Positions 55,305-62,603 of a DNA stretch of 64,000 nt are shown piece by piece. The notes below the pieces were generated by a model. The model did not search any database. It had not been told where the DNA came from and saw only the letters and a list, made by a program, of their open reading frames with translations. Source of the stretch: an uncultured Litorivicinus sp. (GTDB lineage: Bacteria; Pseudomonadota; Gammaproteobacteria; Pseudomonadales; Litorivicinaceae); the NCBI GenBank assembly GCA_902536515.1, contig CACAXU010000002.1, positions 26,951 through 90,950 on the forward strand, in the 5' to 3' direction. A program made the position numbers and the translations under genes. Every line of letters starts with the position of its first letter. Positions within the stretch are counted from its first letter, which is position 1.

Positions 55305-56191
55305 CGCTACCACCGACGGAGATCGTCGATCCGACTGGTCGAGAGTTTGACCGGCTCCCGGTTGCCCTGCAACTAGAGCGTTTGTTGGCGTCGCAGGTTC
55401 AAGCAGTTAAGGCGATAAAAAAAATTACAGATCAACTTGCCGCCGCTGTCGAGGCTGCGACAGACCGTCTTAGTGGGAGTGAAGGGCGTATAGTGTATGC
55501 CGGTGCAGGCTGTTCTATTCGGATTGGTGTCCAGGACGGTGTCGAACTGGTCCCGACATTTGGATGGCCCCTGAATCGTCTGATCTATTTGATTGCAGGG
55601 GGTGCGAAGGCGCTTGCTGAATCGGTCGAGGGTGCCGAGGATAACGTCGATGATGCGGTTGTACAGGTCGAACAACAGTGTCTCACTGCCTCAGATGTGG
55701 TCATTGGTATTGCAGCCTCGGGAAATACACCATTTACCTGTCAGGTTCTCGCAGCAGCCAAAGTGCAAGGTGCTTTGACCATCGGCGTAAGTTCAAATCC
55801 GACCGGTCAACTGATTGCGATCGCCGAGTATGGTTTGGTCACTGAAACTGGCGCTGAAGTCCTTGCTGGTTCCACTCGGTTGGGTGCCGGTACGGCGCAA
55901 AAGGTATTACTGAATTCGTTTTCCACAGCTCTTATGACGCAACTTGGGCGTGTACTCGGTAATGAGATGCTCTGTGTCCAAGCAACTAATGCGAAACTGA
56001 AAGATCGCCAGGCGCGAATCTTGGCAGGCCAAATCGATGGGTTTGACCAGTCGCGTGCATATCAGCTGTTGCGTGAACTGAATTGGGATTTACGCACAGG
56101 CCTATTAGTCGCGTCGGGGTGGGAGCGACAAGATGCCCAAGAAGCTCTCGCGGATGAGCGTCCTTTTAGTGAGTTGCTACGCTCCAGCTGA
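55286..56191 (+). CDS. murQ: N-acetylmuramic acid 6-phosphate etherase-like SIS protein
   Basis: 301-aa MurQ-type SIS-fold enzyme that would cleave the lactyl ether of MurNAc 6-phosphate during cell-wall recycling. VYAGAGCSIRIGVQDGVEL with GCSIRIG in place of the common GTSGRLG, LIAGGAKALAESVEGAED with a catalytic Glu, IGIAASGNTPF and EVLAGSTRLGAGTAQKVLLN are present. The altered first loop could change substrate binding. No anmK, nagK or PTS gene is adjacent. The gene starts within the glnS end and overlaps the convergent sulP by 15 bp. Confidence 0.88.
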   Translation: MGQEKVTLPPTEIVDPTGREFDRLPVALQLERLLASQVQAVKAIKKITDQLAAAVEAATDRLSGSEGRIVYAGAGCSIRIGVQDGVELVPTFGWPLNRLIYLIAGGAKALAESVEGAEDNVDDAVVQVEQQCLTASDVVIGIAASGNTPFTCQVLAAAKVQGALTIGVSSNPTGQLIAIAEYGLVTETGAEVLAGSTRLGAGTAQKVLLNSFSTALMTQLGRVLGNEMLCVQATNAKLKDRQARILAGQIDGFDQSRAYQLLRELNWDLRTGLLVASGWERQDAQEALADERPFSELLRSS

Positions 56192-57913
56192 TTGAGTATG
56201 GCCGTTAGTCTCGCACGCTGGGTCGAGTGTACACATCGCCTCATAATGCGAGAGGAAAATCTGCCCTGTCAGGTGCGCTTTGAAACCGACTCTGTCCAGG
56301 CGGTCCATCACAGGCCCTTTGACCTCTGACAAGTGAAATTTGATGTTCTGAGAATGCAGTCTTTCATTAATTGATTCGAGCACTTCAAGGCCTGACGCAT
56401 CAATTTCGTTAATCGCGTGACAGAGCAACACCAAATCGGTCAGGCGTTTGTTTTTGCTGAGTAACTCATTGATGGCATCTTCGAAGGTATGACCGTTTAA
56501 AAAATACAGCATTTCATCCAAGCGGATGGCCAGAATTTTTTCACTCTTCAGGACGTCATGGCGGTTTGCATTTCGAAAGTGCTGGGTGCCAGGGATCTGA
56601 CCGATGACGGCGAAGTGTGGACGCGCAATTTTTGCTAATAGAAAGCAAATTGAAACGACAATTCCGGCCACGATTCCGGCTTCGATTCCGATCCCTAGGA
56701 CCACGACGATCGTTGTTAACATCGCCCCAAAATCGGGTTTAGAAAAGACCCAAACGCGATGGATCGCTTTCAAATCGACAAGAGATAGGACAGCCACTAT
56801 GACTGTCGCAGCCAACACAGCTTTGGGAAGATATTCAAACAGGGGAGTCAAAAATAAGGCAGTCATTGCGATCATGATTGCCGTGATGACACCCGCGAGT
56901 GGTGTTTTTGCACCGGCTTCAAAATTTACCACTGAGCGGCTAAACCCACCAGTGACGGGAAACCCTCCGCCAAAACCACTGGCAATATTTGCTGCTCCCA
57001 ATCCGATTAGCTCTTGGTTCGGCTGGATTCTTTCGCGGCGACGGGCGGCGAGAGTGTGGCCAACGCTAACTGTCTCAACAAAGCCAACGATCGAAATAAG
57101 AAACGCCGCAGGAAGGAGTTCTTTGGCAAGTGTTAGATCAAGCTCTGGCAATGAGGGTACCGGCAGTCCATCGGGTATATTGCCAACGATTGAAACACCT
57201 GCGTGATGCAAGGCGAAAAAACTAACAAAAGTCGTTGAAACAGTCACTGCCACCACCGGTCCGGCCTTAGTCACACTCCCGGCAACGGCCGCAGTCATCC
57301 CGATTTTTATCAATAGAGGTTCGAGCCCACTTCGGACCCAAAATAGAAAGATCATCGAGGAAATACCGATGACTAACGTCGGTAAATTGGTCTCATTCAG
57401 ATGTGTTGTCAAATTGAGCAGAATTGATGGGATGTCGTGACCGTGCACTGGGATGCCCAAGATGTGCTTGAATTGACTAACTGCGATCAAGATCGCTGAG
57501 GCGCTGATAAAGCCAGAGATCACCGGGTGTGAGAGGAGATTGGCAAGAAATCCTGCGCGAGCAACACCAAGTCCCGTGAGGATGGCGCCTGATAGCAGGC
57601 TCAGCAAGATCGCTGCACCCAGGTATTCCGGTGAACCTTGCGTGGCGATTGGATCAATTGCTGCAGCTGTCATTAACGAAATGATAGCGACAGGCCCAAC
57701 AGCAAGCGTCATACTTGAGCCTAGGAGTGCATAAGCGAAAAGAGGCAGGATTGACGCATACAGACCAACTTCTGGTGGTAATCCAGCAAGCATGGCGTAT
57801 GCGAGTGACTGAGGAATCAGCATGATGGTGACGACGACAGCTGCAAGCGTATCGTCGCTCAGTTTCGAGCGATTGTAGGCCTTAGCCCAGTGAAATAGTG
57901 GTGGTCTTAGCAC
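56177..57913 (-). CDS. SulP family anion transporter with STAS domain
   Basis: 578-aa SLC26/SulP permease. Helices span about residues 18-420, with the signature IMLIPQSLAYAMLAGLPPEVGLY near residue 31 (quoted in part) and GFGGGFPVTGGFSRSVVNF. A C-terminal STAS domain (about 450-560) includes LVLLCHAINEIDASGLEVL. It may carry sulfate, bicarbonate or other anions; being next to a persulfide oxidation locus favours sulfate or sulfite export. The start is GTG with no clear ribosome site, overlapping a small upstream ORF that may couple its translation. Confidence 0.88.
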   Translation of the reverse strand: MLRPPLFHWAKAYNRSKLSDDTLAAVVVTIMLIPQSLAYAMLAGLPPEVGLYASILPLFAYALLGSSMTLAVGPVAIISLMTAAAIDPIATQGSPEYLGAAILLSLLSGAILTGLGVARAGFLANLLSHPVISGFISASAILIAVSQFKHILGIPVHGHDIPSILLNLTTHLNETNLPTLVIGISSMIFLFWVRSGLEPLLIKIGMTAAVAGSVTKAGPVVAVTVSTTFVSFFALHHAGVSIVGNIPDGLPVPSLPELDLTLAKELLPAAFLISIVGFVETVSVGHTLAARRRERIQPNQELIGLGAANIASGFGGGFPVTGGFSRSVVNFEAGAKTPLAGVITAIMIAMTALFLTPLFEYLPKAVLAATVIVAVLSLVDLKAIHRVWVFSKPDFGAMLTTIVVVLGIGIEAGIVAGIVVSICFLLAKIARPHFAVIGQIPGTQHFRNANRHDVLKSEKILAIRLDEMLYFLNGHTFEDAINELLSKNKRLTDLVLLCHAINEIDASGLEVLESINERLHSQNIKFHLSEVKGPVMDRLDRVGFKAHLTGQIFLSHYEAMCTLDPACETNGHTQSAGA

Positions 57914-58129: not shown

Positions 58130-58540
58130 CTATGACAACCGATGAGCGATATCGACGACGCTTAAGCCCGCTTTGTCCACTGTCTCGATGAGCGTGTTGA
58201 CATCCTGTTTGCCAGCCTCAGAAAGCGCCCACAACTTGGCACAACGCGCTCCGGAACGGCAATAAGTCAAAACAGGCCCTGGTACTTCCGACAGCAATGC
58301 AGCATGTTGTGCAACATTAGTGTCTGTGATGTTAGCGCCATTGACTGGCAGATAACGGAATTCAAGGCCAAGAGCGTGCGCTTTCTGCGCCATCGAGTCG
58401 GCGTCTGCATGCGGTTCACCCTCTTCATCAGGGCGGTTACAAATTACGGCGTTAAAACCAGCTTCCTTAACCGCTTCCAAATCATTTATGGTGAGTTGGT
58501 CAGCGACAGACAGTTCAGTTGTCAATTGACGAATAATCAT
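58130..58540 (-). CDS. TIGR01244/DUF442 phosphatase-fold protein
   Basis: 136-aa protein of the DUF442 (beta-lactamase hydrolase-like, Blh N-terminal) type with a dual-specificity phosphatase fold. The active-site loop is LTYCRSGARCAKLW, with the Cys and Arg of the CX5R signature. Members are usually encoded next to, or fused with, persulfide-oxidising metallohydrolases, as here, where it lies nine bases after the metallohydrolase gene. Probable role in sulfide or persulfide handling, possibly as a sulfur transferase. Confidence 0.88.
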   Translation of the reverse strand: MIIRQLTTELSVADQLTINDLEAVKEAGFNAVICNRPDEEGEPHADADSMAQKAHALGLEFRYLPVNGANITDTNVAQHAALLSEVPGPVLTYCRSGARCAKLWALSEAGKQDVNTLIETVDKAGLSVVDIAHRLS

Positions 58541-58549
58541 GGCGCCTCC

Positions 58550-59410
58550 TTAGACGGAATCGAGCGGAATTTTGAGATAGCGTACGCCGTTCTCTTCAGC
58601 GGGCGGTAATTCTCCAGCTCGCATATTGACTTGCACCGATGGCAGGATTAGTGATGGCATACTCAGTGATTGATCTTTCGCTCTGCGCATTGCGACGAAT
58701 TCGTCTTCTGAAATGCCATCGTGGACGTGAAGATTGCAGGCTTTTTGCTTGCCAACAGTCGTTTCGTACTGCATCTCACGACCATTGGGCATGTAGTCAT
58801 GGCACATGAACATTCGTGTTGTCGGTGGTAGTGCCAACAGTTTTTGGATGCTCTGATAAAGAACACGTGCATCACCGCCTGGGAAATCACAACGCGCCGT
58901 TCCAGAATCTGGCATAAACATTGTGTCACCAACAAAAAGTGAATCACCGATTTTGTAGGTCATGCAAGCCGGTGTATGCCCAGGGGTATGTATTGCTTTC
59001 GCTACGAGTCCGCCGATCGCGAAGGAGTCGCCGTCGACGAATAAATGATCAAACTGGGACCCATCACGACAGAAATCCGGCTCGACATTGAATAGATTGC
59101 CAAAAATTTGTTGCACATCGGTGATGTGGGCACCAATACCGATTTTGCCACCGAGATGCTTGTGTAAATATGGAGCAGCTGACAAGTGATCAGCGTGAAC
59201 ATGGGTTTCTAGAATCCATTCGACCGTTAAGTTTTCGTCCGTAACCATTGAGATGACTTGTTCTGCGCCATCTGTTTTTGTTCTGCCACTTGCCCCCTCA
59301 TAGTCGAGTACTGAGTCGATGATCGCACAAGCAGACGAATCAGGATCCTTGACAAGATAGGTTAACGTCCATGTTTTGTGATCAAAGAATGCTCGGACAT
59401 CAGGTGCCAC
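58550..59410 (-). CDS. Metallo-beta-lactamase fold persulfide dioxygenase-like protein
   Basis: 286-aa MBL-fold hydrolase of the Blh/ETHE1 type. The metal motif is ETHVHADHLSAAPYL (HxHxDH), followed by HTPGHTPACM, LFVGDTMFMPD and CHDYMP. The family oxidises glutathione persulfide to sulfite in bacterial sulfide detoxification and is often under the ArsR-type repressor BigR. It is first gene of a minus-strand unit with the DUF442 protein and SulP, and divergent from a broken transporter. Confidence 0.9.
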   Translation of the reverse strand: MAPDVRAFFDHKTWTLTYLVKDPDSSACAIIDSVLDYEGASGRTKTDGAEQVISMVTDENLTVEWILETHVHADHLSAAPYLHKHLGGKIGIGAHITDVQQIFGNLFNVEPDFCRDGSQFDHLFVDGDSFAIGGLVAKAIHTPGHTPACMTYKIGDSLFVGDTMFMPDSGTARCDFPGGDARVLYQSIQKLLALPPTTRMFMCHDYMPNGREMQYETTVGKQKACNLHVHDGISEDEFVAMRRAKDQSLSMPSLILPSVQVNMRAGELPPAEENGVRYLKIPLDSV

Positions 59411-59423
59411 GGAAATCTCCTCT

Positions 59424-59452
59424 GCGCTATAGCGCTTGGTTATAAGCTTATA
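59424..59452. promoter_or_regulatory. Two perfect 12-bp palindromes in the divergent promoter region
   Basis: GCGCTATAGCGC (59424-59435) and TATAAGCTTATA (59441-59452) lie 14 to 42 bp upstream of the persulfide dioxygenase-like gene and before the transporter relic. Paired dyads in this place suggest a repressor operator, for example of a BigR/YgaV-like ArsR regulator, but no such regulator gene is in the window. Confidence 0.5.
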
Positions 59453-59511
59453 TCACTCGATCTTATGATTCGATATTATCTGTTATATGTTGACCTTGAG
59501 GTAAATCAACG

Positions 59512-59925
59512 ATGATTGAATTTACACCGATGCTGTGTGTGTCAGGGGGCTTCTTAATCGGATTGTCTGCAAAGCCGTATTTGTCCTTTGGATGTATCCT
59601 TGGGATATCGGGAATTATTGCCCACACCCTAAATTTTTATTTTGTCCCGGGCCCATGGCGGCCTTTTTTTAATCGGTTTAGTGGGATAGCCTGCAGTGGT
59701 ATAGATGGCTTCGCCATCGCCGCATGAATTTGAACCCAAGAGTCTGATTCCGATGATGATTGGCGGCTTTCTGGTGGGCTATGGCACACGTGTTAGTTCA
59801 GGGTGTATCAGTGGCCTCGGCATTTGCTATATTTCACGACTTTCGGAACATTTGATCTTTGCGATCTGCAGTTATGTGGCGGTAGCAGTGATCACCGTTT
59901 TTGTTCGTCATTTAACGCAGGGTGC
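59512..59925 (+). pseudogene. Broken YeeE/YedE-family (PmpA-like) sulfur transporter subunit
   Basis: The frame starts normally (MIEFTPMLCVSGGFLIGLSA, then ILGISGIIAH) but breaks in a run of seven Ts at 59664-59670. The continuation in the +1 frame reads FLIGLVG, is cut by TAG stops at 59687 and 59702, and then runs on with SPHEFEPKSLIPMMIGGFL, GYGTRVSSGCISGLGICYIS and VITVFVRHL, which is the second half of a YeeE protein. One frameshift and two nonsense codons argue for real decay. Its intact kin import thiosulfate-like sulfur next to persulfide genes. Confidence 0.85.
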
Positions 59926-60330
59926 GTCATACCCAAGATTATCGCATTTGTGCTCGGCGCTGTCTTTGGTGGTGGGTTATCCTTAGCCAGAATGACGACT
60001 CCGTCAAAGATCGTTAACTTCCTTGTTAACACAGGTACCTGGAGTCCGAGCTTGATTTTCTTGATGGGCTGTGGGAGTCCAGTGGCAGCGGTCGGCTTTT
60101 TGATTCTGAAAAAGCTTGAAAAGCTGACGGTTTTTGACGATGTTCAGGTACCGACAGATTGCGTGATCGATCAGTGATTAGTGATCGAAATTGGTTGTAT
60201 TGGCTGGAGCGTTTCAGATCTTTGTCCGGACCCAGCGTTCGCGTTTGTCCTACTGGAACCTAAGATTATCATCCCGTATTTAATTGCTTTGGTTCTCGGT
60301 AGTCTTGCTAACGATCAAATCCAACGGTAG
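59926..60330 (+). pseudogene. Broken DUF6691 (PmpB-like) sulfur transporter subunit
   Basis: The second half of the transporter pair. The coding frame begins around VIPKIIAFVLGAVFGGGLSL at 59926 without a usable start codon and continues with ARMTTPSKIVNFL and GTWSPSLIFLMG. An in-frame TGA at 60175-60177 stops it. After that stop the same frame carries on as IGCIGWSVSDLCPDPAFAF and the hydrophobic tail IIIPYLIALVLGSL, ending with TAG at 60328. That matches the normal C-terminus of the family, so the TGA is a nonsense mutation. Confidence 0.85.
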
Positions 60331-60365
60331 CGTTTGATCTTTCTAACGACTCAAAGGGTGCTCCA

Positions 60366-62603
60366 TTGTCGCTTGAATCAACCGAAGCTTTCGAACGGCT
60401 TTCCTTAAAAACATATACCGAAAAAGCGTACCTCGATTATTCGATGTACGTTATTTTGGACCGCGCTCTTCCTCATATCGGCGATGGATTAAAACCAGTT
60501 CAACGGCGCATTATTTATGCGATGAGTGAACTGGGTTTATCCGCTCAATCCAAGCATAAGAAATCAGCGCGAACAGTTGGTGATGTGCTTGGTAAGTTCC
60601 ATCCCCACGGCGACTCTGCATGCTACGAAGCAATGGTGCTGTTGGCGCAACCGTTCTCTACGCGCTATCCACTGGTCGATGGCCAGGGAAATTGGGGTAG
60701 TCCAGACGACCCAAAAAGCTTCGCTGCAATGCGCTATACCGAAGCACGTCTTACACCCATTGCGAAAATCTTGCTCGACGAATTGGGTCGAGGGACGGTT
60801 GATTGGCAGCCAAATTTCGATGGTACCCTCAAAGAACCCAAGTTACTTCCAGCGCGTGTGCCATCGATCCTTCTCAACGGAACTACAGGTATTGCAGTCG
60901 GTATGGCGACTGACATACCGCCACACAATTTGCGTGAAGTTGTGAACGCCGCCGTTCATCTGCTTGATGATCCTGACGCTTCGGTTGACGAGTTGATGCG
61001 ACTTGTCCCGGGTCCAGATTATCCGACGACTGCTGAAATTATTTCTCCTTCAGCAGATTTGACGAGGATCTATGAAAACGGTAACGGATCGATCCGGATG
61101 CGTGCGACCTATATATTTGAAGATGGCGATATCGTGATTAATGCGTTACCACACCAGGCATCTCCAGCGCGTATCCTTGAACAAATCGCCGCACAAATGC
61201 AGGCCAAGAAATTACCAATGATTGTCGATTTGCGTGATGAGTCAGATCATGAAAACCCGATTCGTTTGGTATTAACTCCGCGTTCAAATCGAGTGAACGC
61301 TGAAGAAGTGATGACGCACTTGTTCGCGACCACTGACCTCGAGAAAACCTATCGTGTGAACTTGAACATGATTGGTGTTGATGGTCGCCCACAGGTAAAG
61401 TCACTACGTTCAATTCTGAGCGAATGGCTTGATTGGCGTCGTCAGACGGTGACTCGACGATTAACCCATCGTCTCGATCAGGTGATGGACCACCTGCATA
61501 TTTTAGAAGGATATTTGGTCGCTTACCTGAATATCGACGAGGTGATTCGTATAATCCGCGAAGAGGATGAACCGAAACACGAATTTATGGTTCGATTTAA
61601 ACTCAGTGAAATCCAAGCGAATGCCATTCTTGATCTTCGGTTGCGTTACTTAGCCAAGCTCGAGGAAGTGAAAATTCAAGCAGAGCAAAAAGAGCTTGAG
61701 AAAGAGCGGAAGTATCTGGAAGGAGTGCTCGGTTCTCGCATAAAAATGACGCGATTGATGCGAGATGAGCTTACACAGGATGCAGAGACCTATGGAGATA
61801 AGCGTCGTTCGCCAATTGTCGTGAGACAGGAAGCGCGTGCTCTCCGTGAGGATCAGTTAGTCGCATCAGAGCCTGTGACCGTCGTGTTGAGTGATAATGG
61901 TTGGATTCGGTCTGCCAAAGGCCACGACATCGATCCTCGCGCCCTAACCTATAAATCTGGAGATCAATATCTGACTTCAGCTCAGGGCCGCTCAAACCAG
62001 CCGCTAGTCGCATTTGATACAACAGGACGTGCATATTCGTTACAGACACATACACTGCCGTCGGCACGGAGTCAGGGTGAGCCGTTATCGGGTCGGATTG
62101 ATTTGGCAACTAACGCTAAAATCGCTCAGCTAGCGCTTGCCGATGAAACAACTCAATGGGTATTAGCAACTGACCATGGGTATGGATTTATCTGCAAGCA
62201 TGGAGCTCTCCTCGGCCGAAACAAAGCCGGTAAGTCTGTCGTGAACGTGGGTGAAGCGAAATTGTTACCGCCTGCTGAAATTGGCGATACAGAATTATCA
62301 CGCATTGCCGTTGTGGTCTCGAGTGGGCACCTATTAGTTTTCGAAGCACATGAGTTGCCGGAGCTTGTCAAAGGCAAAGGGAATAAATTGGTTCAAATAC
62401 CACCTGCGCTCCTTAGAGAGGGGCACCGTGTCAGGGCGATCACGGTCTTACCACCACTTCGATCACTTCGGGTCATTGCGGGTAAGCGGCATGTCACGTT
62501 ATCCCCATCAGATCTTGAGAATTTTGTCGGAGAACGCGCACGTCGCGGGAAACTCCTACCGCGCGGATTCCAACGTGTGGATGTGCTTGAGGTGGAATCA
62601 TGA
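60366..62603 (+). CDS. parC: DNA topoisomerase IV subunit A
   Basis: Decatenating type II topoisomerase subunit, 745 aa. The N-terminal [20 protein letters not shown], the quinolone-resistance region [20 protein letters not shown], and the catalytic Tyr in [13 protein letters not shown] are canonical. ParC-type C-terminal blades follow. The start is TTG at 60366 with AAAGGG upstream, aligned with the E. coli N-terminus. It is followed by serB with an ATGA overlap. parE is not in the window. Confidence 0.96.

Follow-up and report, generated by a model that had tools for sequence, protein, structure and literature searches.

In a 64,000-nucleotide stretch of DNA from an uncultured Litorivicinus sp. 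(hereafter, the window), two adjacent genes for a YeeE-like and a DUF6691-like protein are interrupted by a frameshift and several stop codons, and the question arises whether they are true pseudogenes and, if so, when and why they were lost. An earlier note, made from the sequence alone, had proposed a recent loss of the transporter with retention of the detoxifying enzymes. On the evidence discussed here, we are confident that these are true pseudogenes of a PmpA/PmpB-type transporter, and that the loss is old, was followed by neutral drift and occurred repeatedly in the genus, redundancy being the presumed reason.

The Locus and Its Lesions

The window genome (G000) is a 1.07-Mb assembly of 60 contigs with an estimated completeness of 60.8%. 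At the locus, the genes for SulP, a DUF442 sulfur transferase and a persulfide dioxygenase occupy the minus strand, while YeeE, DUF6691, parC and serB are arranged divergently on the plus strand (Table 1). SulP, DUF442, the dioxygenase, ParC and SerB are all open and full length, as the earlier note had stated for the first three, and the lesions are confined to ~0.8 kb flanked by ~7 kb of intact genes. The pair lies 35–40 bp upstream of parC, with which it forms an apparent operon. The dioxygenase matches the dioxygenase half of NF040641 (E = 8e-120), with a score under the cut-off of this fused model, and the solved structure 4ysk aligns along its entire length (E = 2e-122). The palindromic element in the divergent promoter region has largely been preserved among near relatives and has degenerated in the clade of G004, G017 and G007; it is a candidate operator of a sulfur-responsive repressor.

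Table 1. Features of the decayed transporter locus and its surroundings (positions in the window).
Feature	Position	Strand	Basis or remark
SulP sulfate-permease-family transporter with STAS domain, intact	56177..57913	-	profile search
DUF442/TIGR01244 sulfur transferase, intact	58130..58540	-	profile search
Persulfide dioxygenase, intact, Blh/ETHE1-like metallo-beta-lactamase fold, divergent neighbour	58550..59410	-	NF040641 and 4ysk matches
Inverted-repeat TTATAAGCTTATA element, divergent promoter region	59437..59456		alignment with relatives
YeeE/PmpA-like pseudogene, PF04143 remnant; 142 codons in intact relatives	59512..59932	+	PF04143, E = 2e-7 on 59705-59986
T7 run, site of a 2-bp frameshifting deletion common to sister species G021	59664..59670	+	alignment with intact relatives
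First in-frame TAG (TCG in intact G008), also in G021	59687..59689	+
Second in-frame TAG (TCG in intact G008), private to the window genome	59702..59704	+
DUF6691/PmpB-like pseudogene, PF20398	59929..60330	+	PF20398, E = 4e-14; family C-terminus retained
TGA replacing the CCA of G008, codon 83; private to the window genome	60175..60177	+
parC, intact, immediately downstream of the pair	60366..62603	+	control gene in selection tests

The lesions described in the earlier note, namely the frameshift at the T7 run of the YeeE-like gene, the two TAG codons in its continuing frame, and the missing start and premature TGA of the DUF6691-like gene, are all present when 59401–60500 is read in three frames and aligned with intact relatives, and more were found than it had listed; both genes are indeed pseudogenes. 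The YeeE remnant shares ~69% identity with the intact protein of G008, spread over two frames. Alignment with relatives reveals deletions of 1 bp and 2 bp near 59570–59584, which restore the frame and leave residues ~20–25 scrambled; in addition, 3 bp are deleted at 59903, and the stop codon has been lost (TAC at 59930–59932). In the DUF6691 remnant, ATA at 59929–59931 replaces the ATG of relatives, a change also found in G021. Past the premature TGA, the normal family C-terminus continues to a TAG at 60328–60330, interrupted by a private 6-bp deletion at 60196.

The intact YeeE gene of G008 contains a slippage-prone run of eight T residues, from which one T is missing in G018 and in G021 and more are missing in the window genome. 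The missing T shared by G018 and G021 is treated here as recurrent homopolymer slippage, because a single origin would require a reversion in G008.

Despite these lesions, both remnants are still recognised by their family profiles. The YeeE half scores 31.2 bits against PF04143 (cut-off 27), versus 39.1 bits for intact G008, and the DUF6691 half 53.5 bits against PF20398, versus 139.1 bits. The motifs GCTSGH and GLCPGPA of the G008 proteins (142 and 135 aa) are found as GCISGL and DLCPDPA, i.e., the cysteines are retained and neighbouring residues are changed. As judged from these matches, the pair belongs with the known PmpA/PmpB systems, a half-size YeeE with a DUF6691 partner, predicted to transport a sulfur compound.

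Selection and Timing of the Loss

Between the window genome and G021, differences in the pair are spread evenly over first, second and third codon positions (40/40/29; p = 0.33), while the six flanking genes show 110/63/356 (Fisher p = 6e-15 against the pair). In a purpose-written branch codon model, terminal-branch dN/dS is 1.07 for the window genome (p = 0.82 versus 1) and 1.67 for G021 (p = 0.32 versus 1), neither of which differs from 1, whereas both depart from the background of 0.062 (p = 2e-20 and p = 1e-13, respectively). The stem leading to the two has a dN/dS of 0.51 (p = 3e-8 against background), and values of 0.50 and 0.39 were obtained for G018 and G012; for intact G008, dN/dS is 0.12, and a value of 1 is rejected (p = 5e-8). 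The control genes, too, have higher dN/dS on the G000/G021 branches (0.14–0.29 versus 0.02–0.07), and part of the excess on these branches may reflect sequence error or segregating mutation. The relaxed selection that the earlier note had suggested looking for by comparison with intact homologues is borne out by both approaches.

The window genome and G021 have in common the 2-bp deletion and first TAG of YeeE as well as the loss of the DUF6691 start codon (ATG to ATA); therefore, the two represent one loss event. Since lesions are shared, codon positions are evenly hit and dN/dS is indistinguishable from 1, the pair died before the two species split: it was inactivated on their stem and has evolved neutrally in the two lineages ever since. 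Divergence within the pair (~0.13 per site) is of the same order as that at fourfold sites of flanking genes (0.18). Hence, "recent loss", as the earlier note put it, does not describe a locus whose inactivating lesions are shared across ~0.18 fourfold-site divergence, with neutral divergence since the split. Small deletions outnumber insertions in the pair, and bulk removal has not taken place in either species, with 816 of 830 bp retained in the window genome and 826 of 830 bp in G021.

Fate of the Pair across the Genus

The locus is informative in 17 members of the genus. Both genes are intact in ten of them (G001, G002, G003, G006, G008, G009, G013, G014, G015 and G020), and the pair is broken in the window genome, G021 and G018. 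G012 has an open YeeE gene next to a DUF6691 gene frameshifted by a 4-bp deletion. A gap of ~260 bp is all that lies between the start of the dioxygenase gene and parC in G004, G017 and G007; G004 and G017 retain recognisable remains of the first part of YeeE and the last part of DUF6691 (E of ~1e-6 and ~1e-15 versus intact G015), and G007 has the corresponding segment. This state is most simply read as a single old internal deletion of ~0.7 kb that would have left both ends in place.

A tree of parC, serB, the dioxygenase and DUF442 pairs the window genome with G021 and G008 with G018, the split between the pairs having 100% support; G012 is placed next to these pairs, and the G004/G017/G007 clade elsewhere. 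Mapped onto this tree, the sequence comparison shows at least four separate losses, on the G000/G021 stem, in G018, in G012 and in the ancestor of G004, G017 and G007. The loss in G012, seen as one lesion in one assembly, is the least certain of the four and might reflect an error of the assembly. A single loss in a common ancestor of all broken copies was considered and rejected, given that the sister of G018, G008, is intact and constrained, and that G012 and the clade of G004, G017 and G007 sit elsewhere in the tree and carry other lesions.

The dioxygenase is full length in all informative members except G007, where stop codons and a large internal deletion have made this gene, too, a pseudogene (locus L095 of G007:C86, 3840-4400), a more advanced stage of loss at the locus. 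No SulP gene is present here in G004, G017 and G007, nor in G014, which retains the YeeE pair.

Other Sulfur Systems in the Genus

In most members of the genus, one or more additional full-length PF04143 proteins are encoded elsewhere. Full-length YeeE (364 aa) is present in the loss lineages G004, G007 and G012; thus, while the short pair is dead, the wording of the earlier note, by which "the" transporter was lost, goes too far. A rhodanese-domain protein is encoded beside full-length YeeE in G004 (G004:C48), G007 (G007:C29) and G008 (locus L185 of G008:C3, 3619-5695), and the arrangement of rhodanese followed by the full-length YeeE-family gene, adjoining a gene for a protein of 537–539 aa, is conserved in the genus. 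Together, these proteins likely constitute an alternative sulfur-import system. In the assembled parts of the window genome, G021 and G018 (~61–63% complete), full-length YeeE was not found. One G021 contig ends (G021:C8:37631) inside a rhodanese gene that is open to that point; in relatives, rhodanese precedes full-length YeeE.

The window genome, G007 and others encode SoxB and SoxC, and sox-based thiosulfate oxidation has been reported from the related OM252 clade (PMC8269220). In Cupriavidus without SoxCD, yeeE/yedE and pdo transcripts increase (PMC9959259). A link between loss of the pair and loss of Sox is unsupported in the genus, as SoxB and SoxC remain in loss lineages.

Possible Reasons for the Loss

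In relatives, the intact pair is located divergently from the group of sulfur transferase, persulfide dioxygenase and SulP. It may have become dispensable if full-length YeeE paralogues and the Sox system with SoxC cover the handling of sulfane sulfur while the dioxygenase detoxifies intracellular persulfide, a scheme to which we accord a little less than an even chance.

Alternatively, loss could have been adaptive, with the importer being selected against, e.g., on account of toxic reduced sulfur import or use as a phage receptor. The parallel losses among the 17 informative genomes, together with retention of the dioxygenase throughout three of the four loss lineages and partly in the fourth, are in line with such a scenario; however, nothing sets it apart from a redundant gene being lost neutrally several times, and the slow decay to a nearly full-length remnant in the window genome and G021 needs no selection against the gene, which leaves adaptive loss unlikely.

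It is quite unlikely, too, that the remnant has been kept for a non-coding role, as leader or promoter of parC or as spacing of the divergent promoters. While the near-complete length of the remnants, their closeness to parC and the conserved palindrome would fit such a role, the body of the pair evolves at the neutral rate, and G004, G017 and G007 have dispensed with ~0.7 kb of it and yet keep parC intact.

Errors of assembly or amplification in intact genes, which the earlier note had named as its counter-case, are a highly improbable source of the frameshift and stops. The window assembly is fragmented and incomplete, and homopolymers are error-prone, but the three lesions shared with G021 recur in a separate assembly of another species, which excludes assembly error for them; moreover, the flanking genes are free of lesions, and codon-position periodicity is lost across the whole pair. 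A recoded, still functional transporter relying on programmed frameshifting or stop readthrough is hardly credible at all, since, for all that the downstream frames still match their families, codon positions are neutral, dN/dS is ~1, the start codon is lost and G021 has further stops.

Old inactivation followed by neutral drift, as we read the locus, is ordinary gene decay whose stages are documented with unusual completeness within one genus: intact genes, a single lesion, several lesions, neutral drift over two species, and end fragments only. From this graded series, it would seem that the persulfide dioxygenase can do without the short YeeE/DUF6691 pair. A further-reaching reading of the parallel losses with the dioxygenase kept, by which importer and dioxygenase are separable in function and the importer, instead of being merely redundant, is disfavoured in some of the genus, seems rather unlikely to us. 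The loss lineages are natural nulls for physiology, and the graded series also offers a neutral reference against which mutation and deletion can be gauged in a marine bacterium with a small genome.

Comparison with Known Systems

The closest counterpart is PmpA/PmpB, also known from yeeE-yedE-pdo2 operons, of which we take PmpB to be equivalent to the DUF6691 partner, its own membership in DUF6691 being presumed. The locus has in common with it the tandem YeeE-like and DUF6691-like genes (~135–142 aa in intact relatives) and the adjacent persulfide dioxygenase; however, the pair is divergent from the dioxygenase instead of sharing one operon, a BigR/ArsR gene is lacking between the genes, and the pair is degenerate in the window genome. 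PmpA/PmpB have been described as short YeeE-family pairs of ~130 aa each, with no evidence of a role in sulfur oxidation in Hyphomicrobium (PMC11582611), and the yeeE-yedE-pdo2 operon is under BigR in Acinetobacter, having earlier been found in Serratia (PMC7315123).

The adjacent DUF442 and dioxygenase genes correspond to the two halves of the bifunctional sulfur transferase-dioxygenase Blh (NF040641) of bigR operons, but they are separate genes here, each under the cut-off of the fused model. The thiosulfate transporter TsuA/YeeE (6leo) is matched in its C-terminal part by the YeeE of an intact relative; the latter is, however, half-size and scores 27.5 bits against NF052577, far under the cut-off of 400 for full-length TsuA. 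Finally, the full-length YeeE-like sulfur importers of the SoxT type (PMC11582611) belong to the same superfamily, and full-length YeeE paralogues occur in the genus, whereas the decayed locus is a short pair and not a full-length gene.
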